Assembly: GCF_014131695.1 (NCBI RefSeq)
Contig: NZ_CP036346.1
Coordinates: 2,294,001 to 2,358,000 of the forward strand
Source: Thomasclavelia ramosa DSM 1402
GTDB taxonomy: Bacteria > Bacillota_I > Bacilli_A > Erysipelotrichales > Coprobacillaceae
Direction: 5' to 3'
DNA length: 64,000 bases
Shown here: positions 12,236 to 38,523 of the stretch, piece by piece
Layout of the letters: the number at the start of each line of letters is the position of its first letter
Numbering within the stretch: position 1 is the first letter of the stretch
Program-made: the position numbers and the translations under genes
Notes under the pieces: model-generated
Database searches by the model: none
Seen by the model: only the letters and a program-made list of their open reading frames with translations
Told to the model about the DNA's origin: nothing

Positions 12236-13723
<1,488 letters not shown>

Positions 13724-32942: not shown

Positions 32943-34136
32943 CTACATACTTCCAACATTTTGATACATTGAATAAATTGGTACTAACACAGAAATAATA
33001 ATTACACAAATTACTACTGCTAAAACAATAATCATAGCTGGTTCCAAAATAGCAACCATTTTTTCTGACGCTAACATAGCTTCATAATCAAAATCATCAG
33101 CTAGTGAACTCAGTAAGTCTTCAAGGTTTCCACTTTCTTCACCAATATATACACTTGAAGTTAATTTAATATCAAATCCATCAATCATTCCAATTGCAAC
33201 TGACAATGCCTCACCATTTCTAACCGCTTTAATAGAGTTATCAAACTGCGTTTCAATATATTTATTACCAATCGTAGATTTTACGATCACCATTGCATTA
33301 ACAATTGAAATCCCACTAGAATATAAAGAGCATAAAGTTCTTGCAAATCTTGAGGTATAAATTATTTTCATTAGTTTCCCAATTATCGGCATTTTTAATT
33401 TAAAGCGATCAAACTGATATTTAACTTTTGGTAATTGCAACAATGACACAATTATTAATATTAATACTAGGATGCCAATCAACAGTGCGTACCAGTAACT
33501 CATAATAAATTTACTAATTATAATATTGATTTCTGTTATTAATGGTAATTCCATTCCCTCAAACATACTAAAGAACGATGGTAACACAGCTGTATAAACA
33601 ATCAATAAAACAACAATTGTAACTATTCCTAATATGACTGGATAAGTCATTGCTGATTTAACTTTATTTTTAATCTTATTATCATTTGTAAATTGATTAT
33701 TTAAGACCATCATTGTATCTTGCATGTTCCCGCTCGCTTCACCAGATCTTACCATTTGAATTAATATATCAGGAAAGGCTTTCCCCTGTTCTTTTAATGC
33801 ATCTGATAATGTTTGTCCCTGCTGCAATTTTACATATATATCATTATAAATCGCTTTTAGTTTCTTATTATCTTCACGGCTTGCTAAAATTGAAACCGTT
33901 CGAATCAGCGGTAATCCAGAATTCATCATTGTTCCAATCTCACGACAAAAATTAGCTAATTCCTTCAATTTCATCTTATAATTTTTAGTTTCTTCTTTAG
34001 TTATATCTTTATGAGAAATCAAATACATATCTTTAACACGTAAAAGCTGACTAAGTTCATGCTCATCCCTAGCCTCCGTTTTTCCTGTTATTTTCTTTGC
34101 GTTTATATCACGTGCTACATATTTATAAATTGCCAT
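32943..34136 (-). CDS. pilC: Type IV pilus inner-membrane platform PilC
   Basis: GspF/PilC-family polytopic protein of 397 residues with two repeats of the T2SSF domain. The first holds LANFCREIGTMMNSGLPLIRTVSILA and the second RFARTLCSLYSSGISIVNAMVIV, followed by a conserved EESGNLEDLLSSLADDFDYE. About three membrane helices lie at 170-195, 215-240 and 365-395. It anchors the assembly motor. It starts a few bases after the PilD gene. Confidence 0.9.
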   Translation of the reverse strand: MAIYKYVARDINAKKITGKTEARDEHELSQLLRVKDMYLISHKDITKEETKNYKMKLKELANFCREIGTMMNSGLPLIRTVSILASREDNKKLKAIYNDIYVKLQQGQTLSDALKEQGKAFPDILIQMVRSGEASGNMQDTMMVLNNQFTNDNKIKNKVKSAMTYPVILGIVTIVVLLIVYTAVLPSFFSMFEGMELPLITEINIIISKFIMSYWYALLIGILVLILIIVSLLQLPKVKYQFDRFKLKMPIIGKLMKIIYTSRFARTLCSLYSSGISIVNAMVIVKSTIGNKYIETQFDNSIKAVRNGEALSVAIGMIDGFDIKLTSSVYIGEESGNLEDLLSSLADDFDYEAMLASEKMVAILEPAMIIVLAVVICVIIISVLVPIYSMYQNVGSM

Positions 34137-34149
34137 TTCTCTTCCTCAC

Positions 34150-34914
34150 TTATAAATTAAAAAATGATAGATACACCCTAATTATTTCATTTCCATATAA
34201 TAGTGCTATAAATATCCCTAAACACAAATATGGTCCAAAAGCCATGTGTGACTGCTCTTTTGACTTTTTTGTTACCATCAAATAACTAGCATAAATCCCC
34301 CCAGCTAATAGTCCAATAAAACCAGCTAATAAAGTATTTATCCAGCCAAGCATAAATCCACAAACAAACATCAGTTTCATATCACCACCGCCAAAACAGT
34401 CTGGTATGGCTAATGTCATTAATAACATAAACCCACTAACTGATGCCATTCCAATAACACGACTACTAATACTAATTTGAGGCTCTAAAACTGCACAGAC
34501 AATAACTGGAGCAACCAAAGCAATAACTAATCCATTAGGGATAGTCATAGTATCAAAATCAATCATTGTAATCGTCAATAAAATCATTGCTAAAACAAAA
34601 CTAACTAATGTCATCCAAGTAAAACCATAACGATAAAAGCATAACATTGCTAACAAACCACCACATAATTCAATTAATGGATACCGTGGGCTAATTGGCT
34701 CTTTGCAAAAGCGACATTTACCTTTTAGAAACAGCCAACTAAAAACAGGTATCATATCATATGGTTTTAATGTATTGTGACAACTAGGGCAAAAACTTCG
34801 TCCATTAACAAAATCCAAATCTCGAGGAATTCGATAAATTAATACATTGATAAAACTGGCAATACAGCTTCCCAAAATAAACATATAGATATAAGCTATT
34901 ATCAAAAAATCCAC
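34150..34914 (-). CDS. pilD: Prepilin peptidase PilD
   Basis: Membrane aspartic protease that removes prepilin leaders and methylates the new N-terminus. The methylase part has zinc-binding cysteines Cys42, Cys45, Cys67 and Cys70. The protease aspartates are Asp119 (MIDFDTMTIPN) and Asp178 (FGGGDMKLMF). About eight helices are present and the length (254) is normal. The frame opens at a TTG (34932), but GTG 34914 has AAGGGG upstream. The extended -10 box at 34942-34947 would place the mRNA start within a few bases of the TTG, which also favours GTG 34914. Confidence 0.9.
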   Translation of the reverse strand: MDFLIIAYIYMFILGSCIASFINVLIYRIPRDLDFVNGRSFCPSCHNTLKPYDMIPVFSWLFLKGKCRFCKEPISPRYPLIELCGGLLAMLCFYRYGFTWMTLVSFVLAMILLTITMIDFDTMTIPNGLVIALVAPVIVCAVLEPQISISSRVIGMASVSGFMLLMTLAIPDCFGGGDMKLMFVCGFMLGWINTLLAGFIGLLAGGIYASYLMVTKKSKEQSHMAFGPYLCLGIFIALLYGNEIIRVYLSFFNL

Positions 34915-34941
34915 ATTTTCACCCCTTATCAAACTACTAAA

Positions 34942-34950
34942 ATTATATCA
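34942..34950 (-). promoter_or_regulatory. Extended -10 promoter for the pilD-pilT operon
   Basis: Minus-strand TGATATAAT is a perfect extended -10 box; no good -35 is visible. It lies about 30 bp ahead of the GTG start of pilD and after the pilin terminator. The motor genes can therefore be transcribed separately from the major pilin. Confidence 0.5.
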
Positions 34951-35083
34951 TAAATTAATCTTCCAACCTAACATAACATCATCTTGAACACACTTCTATA
35001 CCAGTAATTTAACTTTTTTCTGATACATCTATAATACTTTCTTAAATTTATAATAAATATCCCTTTAAATAAGTTAATGAAAG

Positions 35084-35114
35084 AAAAACCGGCCATCTTT
35101 AACGACAACCAGTT
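35084..35114 (-). terminator. Terminator between major pilin and pilD
   Basis: On the minus strand AACTGG and CCGGTT with a G-U-rich continuation form an 11-bp stem (35087-35114), then TTTTTC. This partial stop would raise pilin levels over the motor genes. Confidence 0.75.
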
Positions 35115-35140
35115 TTTTATTCTATAATTTATTCTAATGT

Positions 35141-35575
35141 TTAATTTACTTCATCAATTTTAACATCTTTATTTTTCTTAACTGTTGCTTCTATTTTCTT
35201 ATCATCATCACTAGTCCATGTAACTTTGTAAGACGTAGCTTTTTCTTCTTTTGGTGTTACATTAGTAGGTGTCGGCGCAATTGTTACATCTTCTAAACTT
35301 GTTTTCTTAATTGCTTCTTTCTCTATACTTTCATAAGTTATATCATCAGCAGCAGTTGCTTTAGCTCGTGCTTCTTCTGTTTGTATAACAATATAAATTG
35401 AATGTGCTTCTGCAACATATTTTGATTCTTTAGCATCATCAATATATCCCATTACCGCTGGAACAGCAATCGCAGCTAAAATCCCCAAAATTACTAATAC
35501 TACGATGATTTCAATAAGCGTAAAACCTTTCTTATTTTTAGCTTTTTTCAATCTTTTTAATAATAATTCTTTCAT
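35141..35575 (-). CDS. pilA: Major type IV pilin
   Basis: Prepilin of 144 residues. The basic leader MKELLLKRLKKAKNKKG precedes G|FTLIEIIVVLVILGILAAIAVPAVMG, with Glu at +5 and the classic helix. The mature part is small, Lys/Thr-rich and without cysteines, with a tail rich in acidic and lysine residues. It is first in the locus, short and has a strong promoter, an AGGAG SD and its own terminator, all expected of the major subunit. The frame extends to 35599, but ATG 35575 has GGAGGAG upstream. Confidence 0.85.
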   Translation of the reverse strand: MKELLLKRLKKAKNKKGFTLIEIIVVLVILGILAAIAVPAVMGYIDDAKESKYVAEAHSIYIVIQTEEARAKATAADDITYESIEKEAIKKTSLEDVTIAPTPTNVTPKEEKATSYKVTWTSDDDKKIEATVKKNKDVKIDEVN

Positions 35576-35696
35576 TTTTTCTCCTCCGTTTATCATCAAT
35601 GAATGTCTAAAAAGTTCTTAACAAAGTAAAACCGGTATTACCTCCTGGTCCCATGCAATACCGATTCTTTTCTTTCTTAACATAACTTTTTACTAC
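35576..35696 (-). ncRNA. Structured 5' leader of the major pilin mRNA
   Basis: The predicted leader is about 120 nt. Its outer stem pairs AAAAAGTT with AACTTTTT (35609-35616 with 35684-35691). An inner stem pairs CGGTATT with AATACCG (35633-35639 with 35657-35663) and closes a 17-base loop reading GCATGGGACCAGGAGGT on the RNA strand. The sides share a repeated GTTAAG. The loop holds a GGAGG-like element but no start codon at usable distance. It looks like a regulatory or stabilising RNA. I do not recognise a named riboswitch, including c-di-GMP-I or -II. Confidence 0.5.
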
Positions 35697-35815: not shown

Positions 35816-36643
35816 TTAATCTTCTTGATTGTCTGTACAATTATTATTTTTATGTTGCTTTCGTTGTCTAAAATAATTAACAAGTGAATAATAAACAGGT
35901 ATCGTTAAAAAAATTAACCAGGTTGGTGACCAAATATTTTCATAGAATCCCTCATACAAAAAATATAAAATCACTAATACAGGATACGGGAATCTGTTAA
36001 GGTTGCGGTGTTTAACTGCAGAAATTGCCCCTTCAATAATTGGAACAATTAATAAAAATATCCATAATGGATGCCATAACTCCGTGTATAAGGCTATCCC
36101 GATATAAGCAATAATTGCAAGTAATGCAAAAGGAAACTTTGTATAATCTTCATAGTAGTAATCCCAGCCTTTTTCTTTACGAATTTTACGCCATTCTTCT
36201 TGATCATATTTTTTATCATCCACAAACACACCAGAACCATCGATATGAATTCTTGAATCTTCTTTTGGATCCTCAACATGAATTCCATTCCAGCCAACAT
36301 GAACCTCTTCACCATCTTCACCAGTCACATGAATCCCATGTTTTAAACTAATATGAACACTTTCTTTTTTCTTTTGTTTCTTATCTTCTTCTGTTTTTTC
36401 TTTTGATGCTTGTTGATTATTACCACTTTCAAATTCTTTTTGATCTGTTTTTAGTAAATCATCCAATGACATTCCATATAACTTGGCAAGTAAGATTAAA
36501 TTATCTGTATCTGGAGATGCTTCTGCTCTTTCCCACTTACTAACTGCTTGGCGACTGATTCCTAATTCATTTGCTAAAGCCTCTTGTGAAAGATTTTTTT
36601 CCTTTCGCAATCTTACTAATCGATTTGCAATTTCTATATTCAT
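35816..36643 (-). CDS. XRE-type regulator with membrane domain
   Basis: Protein of 275 residues. A Cro/CI helix-turn-helix covers residues 1-60 (NIEIANRLVRLRKEKNLSQEALANELGISRQAVSKWERAEASPDTDN, shown in part). A Lys/Glu-rich linker and a short HGIHVTGEDGEEVHVGWNGIHV-type beta repeat follow. The C-terminus has about four hydrophobic segments (FPFALLAIIAYIGIAL, WIFLLIVPIIEGAIS and others), so the regulator is membrane-tethered. The start at ATG 36643 has GGGAGG upstream; the frame opens earlier at 36679. It probably represses its own promoter through the GCAACCA palindrome. Target genes are unknown. Confidence 0.8.
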   Translation of the reverse strand: MNIEIANRLVRLRKEKNLSQEALANELGISRQAVSKWERAEASPDTDNLILLAKLYGMSLDDLLKTDQKEFESGNNQQASKEKTEEDKKQKKKESVHISLKHGIHVTGEDGEEVHVGWNGIHVEDPKEDSRIHIDGSGVFVDDKKYDQEEWRKIRKEKGWDYYYEDYTKFPFALLAIIAYIGIALYTELWHPLWIFLLIVPIIEGAISAVKHRNLNRFPYPVLVILYFLYEGFYENIWSPTWLIFLTIPVYYSLVNYFRQRKQHKNNNCTDNQED

Positions 36644-36688
36644 AAATTTATTCCTCCCTAAATCACCTACATTATGCAAAATAATGCT

Positions 36689-36695: not shown

Positions 36696-36720
36696 TCTAG
36701 ATATTCTAGTTTTCAATTTC

Positions 36721-36735
36721 GCAACCAATGGTTGC
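36721..36735 (-). promoter_or_regulatory. Palindromic operator of the XRE regulator
   Basis: GCAACCA-A-TGGTTGC is a perfect inverted repeat with a one-base centre. It lies just downstream of TATAAT (36745-36750, minus strand), across the expected transcription start, so binding would block the regulator's own transcription. Confidence 0.6.
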
Positions 36736-36791
36736 AATATGACCATTATATTATAATTTGTTCGATGAATACACATAAATTATAATATTTG

Positions 36792-36820
36792 TTGAAATAT
36801 TTTCAAATAATGATTATCAT
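36792..36820 (+). promoter_or_regulatory. Plus-strand promoter for a small RNA
   Basis: TTGAAA (36792-36797), a 17-bp spacer and TATCAT (36815-36820) form a good sigma-A-type promoter. No coding gene follows in this direction. Confidence 0.55.
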
Positions 36821-36826
36821 AAAGTT

Positions 36827-36906
36827 AGGTGATACATTTGTATGGTGTAAAACACCTCCTTTCTGGTTAATGGACTGTTCCGTGCTTGCGCAGTCCATTT
36901 TCTTTT
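36827..36906 (+). ncRNA. Candidate small RNA carrying the 16S anti-SD sequence
   Basis: An 80-nt transcript would start at about 36827 and end at a strong terminator (stem ATGGACTG/CAGTCCAT at 36870-36877 and 36891-36898, then TTTTCTTTT). Upstream, GGTGT-AAA-ACACC (36844-36856) forms a small hairpin. It is followed directly by unpaired TCCTTTCT. Bases 36853-36864 read CACCTCCTTTCT, the 3' tail of 16S rRNA in Firmicutes. The RNA could thus pair with Shine-Dalgarno sequences. The surrounding bases do not match 16S, so this is not an rRNA fragment. The gap 36680-37062 contains nothing coding. A short ATGGTGTAA (Met-Val) is unlikely to matter. Confidence 0.5.
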
Positions 36907-36979: not shown

Positions 36980-37036
36980 AAAATATAAAAACCTCCTAGT
37001 CAGTGTTTAATTATTTACACTGTCTATTAGGAGGTT
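36980..37036. terminator. Two-tier hairpin terminator of the DUF1846 gene
   Basis: Outer arms AACCTCCTA (36990-36998) and TAGGAGGTT (37028-37036), inner arms CAGTGT and ACACTG (37001-37006, 37017-37022). The minus strand continues TTTATATTTTG, ending the DUF1846 transcript. Confidence 0.75.
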
Positions 37037-37062
37037 ATCATATCATTTTTGATATTTTTACA

Positions 37063-38523
37063 TTACAATTTTTTAGCATCATACGTTACTTGAATTCCAA
37101 GGTTACTAAAAACTTTAGCATCCATTGGTCCGATAGAAGAAGTAATGTGCGCTTGGGTCCCCTGTAGTTTAGGTAATTGTTGTAGCGCTAACTTAGCTTT
37201 GTCATTATTAACAGCACTTAATGATAATGCAATCAATATTTCATCACTATGTAAACGTGGATTAACACTTCCTAAATATTCAGTCTTTAAATTTTGAATT
37301 GGACCAAAGGCTGTTGGTGAAATTAAATGTTCATCATCACTGATATTAGCTAAATATTTAATAGCATTGATTAAAATTGCAGAACATGATCCCATGAAAT
37401 CAGATGTACGACCTGTAATGATTGTTCCATCATCTAATTCGATTGCTCCTGCATAACAATTAGCTTCTTTCGACTTTTGGTTTGCAGCCGCAACACACTT
37501 ACGATCTTCAACTACAACCTTTGCCTGATTCATAACAAGTTCTTGCTTATTAACTTCGTCTAATGAACACTCTTCACGAACATAGCGATTCATTGTATTA
37601 TAGTAACGACGAATTATTTCTTGGCGACTAGCTTCCTTACAAGCTTCGTCATCACTCATACAAAAACCTACCATATTAACACCCATGTCAGTTGGTGAGT
37701 TATATGGACTAGTTCCATATATTTCTTCAAACATATTCTTTAATACTGGGAAGATTTCAATATCACGATTATAATTAACAGTTACTTTATTGTATGCTTC
37801 AAGATGAAAAGGATCGATCATATTTACATCATTTAAATCAGCAGTAGCAGCTTCATAGGCTAAGTTAACTGGATGATTTAATGCTAAATTCCAAATTGGG
37901 AATGTTTCAAATTTTGCATACCCAGCTTTAATACCGCGAATATGTTCATGGTATAGTTGTGATAAACATGTTGCCATTTTACCACTTCCTGGGCCCGGAG
38001 CTGTTACAACTACCAGCGGCTTAGTAGTTTCAATATAATCATTTTTTCCAAACCCTTCCTCGCTAATGATTCTTTTAGTATTAGTTGGATAACCATCAAT
38101 CAAATAATGTAAGTACACGGCAATATTTCTTTTTTCCAATCGGCTTTTAAAAATATCCGCTGCTTTTTGACCATCATACTGAGTGATTACTACACTTCCC
38201 ACATATAGTCCCTTTGCTCGATATATTTCAATTAGACGTAAAACATCATTATCATAAGTAATACCTAAATCGCCCCGAACCTTATTACGTTCAATATCAC
38301 TGGCAGAAATTGCAATAACTACTTCTGCTTGATCTTTTAATTGTAATAGCATCTGCAACTTACTATCTGGGGCAAACCCTGGTAAAACTCTTGAAGCATG
38401 ATAGTCGTCAAACAATTTACCACCAAATTCAAGATACAATTTATCACCAAATTGATTAATTCTTTCTTTAATATGCGATGATTGCATCGTTAAATATTTA
38501 TTATTATCAAATCCTATCTTCAT
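37063..38523 (-). CDS. DUF1846 family protein
   Basis: Cytoplasmic protein of 486 residues of the DUF1846 family, a group common in Firmicutes and Actinobacteria whose function is not settled. Landmarks are KIGFDNNKYLTMQSSHIKERI at the N-terminus, VVVTAPGPGSGKMATCLSQLYHE (a P-loop-like GPGSGK stretch, about 175-197), EAATADLNDVNMIDPFHLEAY and a C-terminal AKLALQQLPKLQGTQAHITSS. The frame begins with a TTG at 38535, but ATG 38523 has GGAGG five bases upstream. It stands alone between two terminators. Confidence 0.85.
   Translation of the reverse strand: MKIGFDNNKYLTMQSSHIKERINQFGDKLYLEFGGKLFDDYHASRVLPGFAPDSKLQMLLQLKDQAEVVIAISASDIERNKVRGDLGITYDNDVLRLIEIYRAKGLYVGSVVITQYDGQKAADIFKSRLEKRNIAVYLHYLIDGYPTNTKRIISEEGFGKNDYIETTKPLVVVTAPGPGSGKMATCLSQLYHEHIRGIKAGYAKFETFPIWNLALNHPVNLAYEAATADLNDVNMIDPFHLEAYNKVTVNYNRDIEIFPVLKNMFEEIYGTSPYNSPTDMGVNMVGFCMSDDEACKEASRQEIIRRYYNTMNRYVREECSLDEVNKQELVMNQAKVVVEDRKCVAAANQKSKEANCYAGAIELDDGTIITGRTSDFMGSCSAILINAIKYLANISDDEHLISPTAFGPIQNLKTEYLGSVNPRLHSDEILIALSLSAVNNDKAKLALQQLPKLQGTQAHITSSIGPMDAKVFSNLGIQVTYDAKKL

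Follow-up and report, generated by a model that had tools for sequence, protein, structure and literature searches.

Several small RNAs (sRNAs) of Firmicutes act on translation through pairing with Shine-Dalgarno (SD) sequences, and a resulting block of initiation has been shown or proposed for the csRNAs, LhrC, RoxS/RsaE, IsrR, and FsrA (PMC3091779, PMC4132741, PMC4409812, PMC9410917). Specifically, the CiaR-dependent csRNAs of streptococci are 51-202 nt long and often comprise a hairpin, an unpaired anti-SD, and a terminator, with initiation block as their proposed mode of action (PMC3091779). In the LhrC family of Listeria, the target's SD is covered by a CU-rich segment that lies single-stranded between two hairpins (PMC4132741), while RoxS/RsaE, FsrA, and IsrR, found in AT-rich Firmicutes, carry C-rich regions and pair with SDs through a pyrimidine-rich segment (PMC4409812, PMC9410917, PMC8216469).

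A locus in the window, i.e., the whole stretch of 64,000 nucleotides that was analysed, shares the plan of hairpin, unpaired anti-SD, and terminator that is a usual layout of SD-blocking sRNAs in Firmicutes. As in the csRNAs, the anti-SD lies unpaired between two stem-loops, the second of which is the terminator; however, the CiaR direct repeat NTTAAG-N5-TTTAAG has no match in the promoter region (36701-36830), the csRNA nonamer [A/C]UCCUAAA[A/C] (PMC3091779) is absent from the sRNA sequences of all five species that carry the element, no CAU is found at SD-to-start spacing from the anti-SD, and the gene is present as a single copy in another lineage. The CU-rich segment lying single-stranded between two hairpins is also reminiscent of LhrC, but LhrC occurs in five copies and contains three CUCCC...UUUU sites, whereas one CCUCCUUUCU site, one copy, and no Rfam match are found here. 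Likewise, RoxS/RsaE, FsrA, and IsrR direct a pyrimidine-rich segment against SDs, and the Fur-like box in the promoter of two species recalls FsrA and IsrR; in contrast to these RNAs, the present one lacks runs of four Cs, has a different structure and no Rfam match, and its Fur box is not conserved.

Within the window, no Rfam family reaches its gathering score, a relaxed threshold yields only matches far below that score, and the literature search returned nothing on sRNAs of this bacterial lineage. As far as Rfam and the searched literature go, the family appears to be previously undescribed and of a functional kind that is already known. If this interpretation holds, the locus defines a single-copy, strongly conserved sRNA family in this lineage, and it opens no new class of mechanism.

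Layout, conservation, and distribution of the locus

Judged from its sequence, the plus-strand locus at 36827-36906 is a real, lineage-specific sRNA gene that is probably non-coding. Its promoter consists of a -35 box TTGAAA (36792-36797, plus strand), which is kept in four species and reads TTGAAC in G003, and, after a 17-bp spacer, a -10 box TATCAT (36815-36820, plus strand), which reads TATTAT in G003, G004, and G007. The position of the -10 box places the start of the predicted transcript at about A36827 and gives it a length of about 80 nt. Near its 5' end, a 35-nt block, GATACATTTGTATGGTGTAAAACACCTCCTTTCTG (36832-36866), contains hairpin 1, GGUGU-AAA-ACACC (DNA GGTGT-AAA-ACACC; 36844-36856), and the anti-SD 12-mer CACCTCCTTTCT (36853-36864), identical to the 3' end of the host 16S rRNA, in which UCCUUUCU is predicted to be single-stranded. 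The intrinsic terminator (36870-36906, plus strand) is formed by the stem ATGGACTG/CAGTCCAT (36870-36898) and the U tract TTTCTTTT; its stem is missing from the list of an automatic scan because the loop is long.

Both flanking genes are on the minus strand: the divergent gene of an HTH_3 (Cro/CI-type) DNA-binding protein (35816-36652), starting at 36652, and the gene of a DUF1846 protein (37063-38520), oriented towards the sRNA and ending at 37063. The independent promoter and intrinsic terminator on a plus strand that is otherwise gene-free, a hallmark of an SD-blocking sRNA, agree with the sequence-only reading of this DNA, which had proposed a plus-strand small RNA gene with its own promoter, anti-SD, and terminator in a gap devoid of genes on that strand; every one of these parts was located, and "strong terminator", as that reading put it, is a fair description.

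The element is found as a single copy at the same place, between the DUF1846 and HTH_3 genes, in five of the nine genomes of the genus (G000, G001, G003, G004, and G007), which indicates that it is not a product of chance; a covariance model built from these five sRNA sequences themselves assigns the transcripts E-values of 2e-17 to 5e-21. In the alignment of the five species, 32 of the 35 columns of the block, from GATACATTTG to CTTTCTG, are invariant, as are all five pairs of hairpin 1 and five of the six columns of each promoter box, while the promoter spacer retains 5 of 17 columns and, of the fourfold-degenerate sites of the adjacent HTH gene, which are near saturation in the same genomes, 4 of 22 are invariant. 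The pairing of the terminator is kept in all five species, even where its sequence differs. One C-G pair has become U-A in G004 and G007, a compensated change that counts as one evolutionary event because the two are sisters on the tree, and the covariation is not significant by itself (60/500 in the shuffle control, with only five sequences). The 12-mer is exact in four species, and G003 carries CACCTCCTTACT, with CUUACU in place of CUUUCU. The joint conservation of promoter, 12-mer, and terminator, proposed earlier as a check of the locus, thus stands in full for the promoter boxes and the terminator pairing (5/5) and falls short for the exact 12-mer (4/5). Overall, the alignment demonstrates purifying selection on the parts of the sRNA, as an RNA, in five related species.

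The remaining four congeners (G002, G005, G006, and G008) lack the element. Of these, G005 and G008 have a short DUF1846-HTH gap that does not contain it; in the tree of the HTH protein, these two species are paired within the sRNA-bearing group (supports 81-100), with moderate support for the deeper fork. Given their nested position, the simplest scenario is that the element arose once, before the seven species diverged, and was lost once, and the absence in G005 and G008 likely reflects this single loss. Beyond the genus, covariance-model searches across 43 genomes of the family and 148 sampled from the order, together with a pattern search of 395 sampled from the class, retrieved no further member; the five weak order-level matches to the model that were examined are plain terminators without CCTCC, and the other weak matches examined outside the genus are terminators or unrelated sequence. 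Similarly, no second copy or relative was found elsewhere in the host genome, and no match in phage records, plasmid records, or viral contigs. A scan of a genome collection with an exact 29-mer gave no match, in a collection that may leave out records close to the window's genome, and a second scan of the collection, with the DUF1846 protein, returned this protein as widespread.

The anti-SD segment and the predicted RNA fold

The 12-mer CACCTCCTTTCT occurs at seven sites in the genome, namely the 3' ends of the six 16S rRNA copies, whose tail is GGATCACCTCCTTTCT, and the sRNA locus, where it is the only hit in the 64-kb window when up to one mismatch is allowed (0.23 expected). The twelve bases shared with the 16S rRNA are flanked there by GGAT before and AAGG after, whereas in the sRNA they are flanked by AAAA and GGTT and, unlike the 16S tail, are provided with their own promoter and terminator. 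The identity with the 16S 3' end, first noticed from the sequence alone, is therefore confirmed against the six 16S genes of the host, as is the claim that the locus is not a stray piece of rRNA. The perfect complement of the 12-mer, AGAAAGGAGGTG, has genomic sites only opposite the 16S ends and the sRNA gene. The motif ACCTCCTT has 15 sites in a sample of 464 kb of the genome, and a terminator follows only the one at the sRNA locus.

As evidence, a promoter match counts for nothing by itself, because shuffled sequences yield equally many (10 found in the window, 10.8 expected). The predicted transcript of the window folds better than its shuffled versions (z -3.9), and the RNAs of all five species fold far better than theirs (z -3.9 to -5.1). 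At minimum energy, the RNAs of G000 and G001, that of the window among them, are predicted to form a 5' stem AGGUG/CACCU; this stem was dropped in favour of GGUGU/ACACC, as the other three species carry AGAUG, which breaks it. For three species, the predicted structure is the GGUGU/ACACC hairpin that leaves UCCUUUCU unpaired, and the two others retain each of the five pairs of this hairpin without change. In this modelled structure, ACACC would be held in the small hairpin and UCCUUUCU, with a few As, would remain unpaired ahead of the terminator, in keeping with the earlier description of an anti-SD lying partly in a hairpin. Predicted folds and alignment thus concur in a conserved, accessible SD-complementary segment, a further feature of SD-blocking sRNAs.

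Candidate targets and alternative readings

The sRNA probably acts in trans, pairing through UCCUUUCU and its flanks with the SD regions of a few mRNAs and blocking the entry of the ribosome. Specifically, UCCUUUCU would be the seed that contacts the SD region of an mRNA; hairpin 1 would then open, and the duplex would extend through ACACC and the flanks on those mRNAs that match further, so that the ribosome-binding site would be covered, initiation blocked, and the mRNA exposed to decay. Target specificity would reside in the conserved bases flanking the anti-SD and not in the anti-SD itself. The first 42 nt of the sRNA pair with translation starts at a mean of -14.6 kcal/mol, compared with -11.6 kcal/mol for internal coding DNA, while 20 shuffled versions of these 42 nt reach a mean of -11.9 and a best of -13.4 kcal/mol at translation starts; any anti-SD would be expected to favour translation starts, so these values indicate capacity only. 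The target statistics derive from the 464-kb sample, about 14% of the genome.

No conserved target emerged when the candidates from this sample were compared with the other sRNA-bearing species. Within the sample, pairing is predicted to be strongest with an EAL/PAS gene (genome 12600-15531), whose start region ACCAGAAAGGTGGTGTT (position 12625) is complementary at 16 of 17 bases; the gene is lacking in the other four sRNA-bearing species and, being confined to this one, cannot explain the conservation of the sRNA. The mRNA of the adjacent HTH gene was also discarded, as its pairing is marginally above that of shuffled sequences (1-14% of which are equally good). Prophage genes tend towards strong SDs. 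The genes with AAGGAGGTGT before the ATG that are common to G001, G003, G004, and G007 have strong SDs and seem to belong to prophages (Pfam assigned them to no clear family); strong SDs being expected there anyway, their sharing proves nothing about targeting. The second-best predicted pairing involves a repeated, probably transposase-like frame with the start region AACCAGTAAGGAGGGTTTTTATATG, present at 478-735 of the window and at genome 484456-484941, in which ACTGG/CCAGT beside the SD may form a hairpin of its own.

With its clear seed, its likely loss from two sister species, and its natural sequence variants, the locus would lend itself directly to testing how an RNA with a near-ribosomal anti-SD acquires specificity for its targets in an AT-rich Firmicute.

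A special form of the trans-acting reading, in which the RNA is an iron-regulated, C-rich sRNA like FsrA or IsrR, repressed by Fur and lowering iron-using proteins, is a long shot. It draws on a Fur-like box, AAATAATGATTATCA (36805-36819, with no strand assigned), which overlaps the -10 box in the window and matches the 7-1-7 Fur box TGATAATNATTATCA at 12 of 14 positions, and on matches to the 19-bp Fur box at 15 of 19 positions in G000 and 16 of 19 in G001. However, the box overlaps the -10 box in these two species only, is absent from G003, G004, and G007, and hence is not conserved along with the RNA; moreover, 49 sites with at least 12 of 14 matches occur in 464 kb, which amounts to a chance site every 9.5 kb or so. 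Fur control of the sRNA is, on this basis, a weak lead.

There is likewise little likelihood that the sRNA is a lineage-specific mimic of the 16S tail, which would tune translation globally by broad titration of SDs or by occupying factors that bind the anti-SD. The identity of the 12-mer with the host 16S 3' end and the on average stronger pairing with translation starts speak for such a role. Nevertheless, G003 keeps the rest of the sRNA despite CUUACU, which suggests that the perfect match to the 16S tail is probably not being preserved; the 16S 3' end was not obtained from the G003, G004, and G007 drafts, and CUUACU was compared with the 16S of the window's host. Furthermore, the bases outside the anti-SD (GAUACAUUUGUAUGGUGUAAU) are equally conserved and would not be needed by a generic decoy, four of nine congeners do without the element, and rivalling the abundant ribosomes for all mRNAs would presumably require very high levels of the RNA. 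A general modulator of many mRNAs, one of the two options (general or targeted) left by the sequence-only reading, therefore finds no support, given G003 and the rarity of complements to the 12-mer, with AGAAAGGAGGTG confined as described and AGAAAGGAGG placed 3-10 nt before an ATG at only two sites in the genome; the targeting of few mRNAs is the better of the two.

It is very unlikely that the transcript is instead the mRNA of a short leaderless frame, (G/A)TG ATA CAT TTG TAT GGT GTA AAA CAC CTC CTT TCT..., beginning 2 nt into the RNA: a GTG or ATG start is present in all five species and the frame stays open for at least 12 codons, but not one of the three substitutions after the start is synonymous, each changing the amino acid (H/Y, K/I, S/T), the frames of the species diverge past codon 12-13, and the leader of only 2 nt has no SD. 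Just as remote is the reading without any sRNA, in which the 12-mer is the antisense of a minus-strand SD (AGAAAGGAGGTG) and the hairpin is simply the terminator of the DUF1846 gene, since, even if most anti-SD octamers in the genome sample, namely most of the other ACCTCCTT sites, resemble an ordinary SD read in antisense, having CAT just upstream at SD-start distance, and the hairpin is flanked on both sides by A/T runs in some relatives and could end DUF1846 transcripts, a proper frame is missing from the minus strand (the single ATG there stands 17 nt from GGAGG, is followed by an open stretch of six codons, and does not persist in G003), DUF1846 has a hairpin of its own in the window (36990-37037), and neither proposal accounts for conserved promoter boxes on the plus strand followed by 35 nt that hardly vary.

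Neighbouring genes and their control elements

Upstream of the HTH_3 gene lies the palindrome GCAACCAATGGTTGC (GCAACC-AAT-GGTTGC; 36721-36735, with no strand assigned), which is kept with compensating changes in relatives and reads GCAACTATTAGTTGC in G008, a species without the sRNA. Its retention where the sRNA is missing suggests that it most likely serves the HTH gene and is not tied to the sRNA; it is a likely autoregulatory operator of that gene. In G004, the HTH_3 gene (G004:C26:19220-19987) has an internal TAG, yet the sRNA is intact. On the other side of the sRNA, the long hairpin AACCTCCTAGTCAGTGT...ACACTGTCTATTAGGAGGTT at 36990-37037 is a probable minus-strand terminator of the DUF1846 gene. 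Lastly, pilus-type genes are located near the HTH gene on the minus strand (32943-35599); their products are a pilus/secretion-like membrane protein (32943), a prepilin peptidase (34150), and a pilin-like protein (35141) that carries an N-methylation motif.
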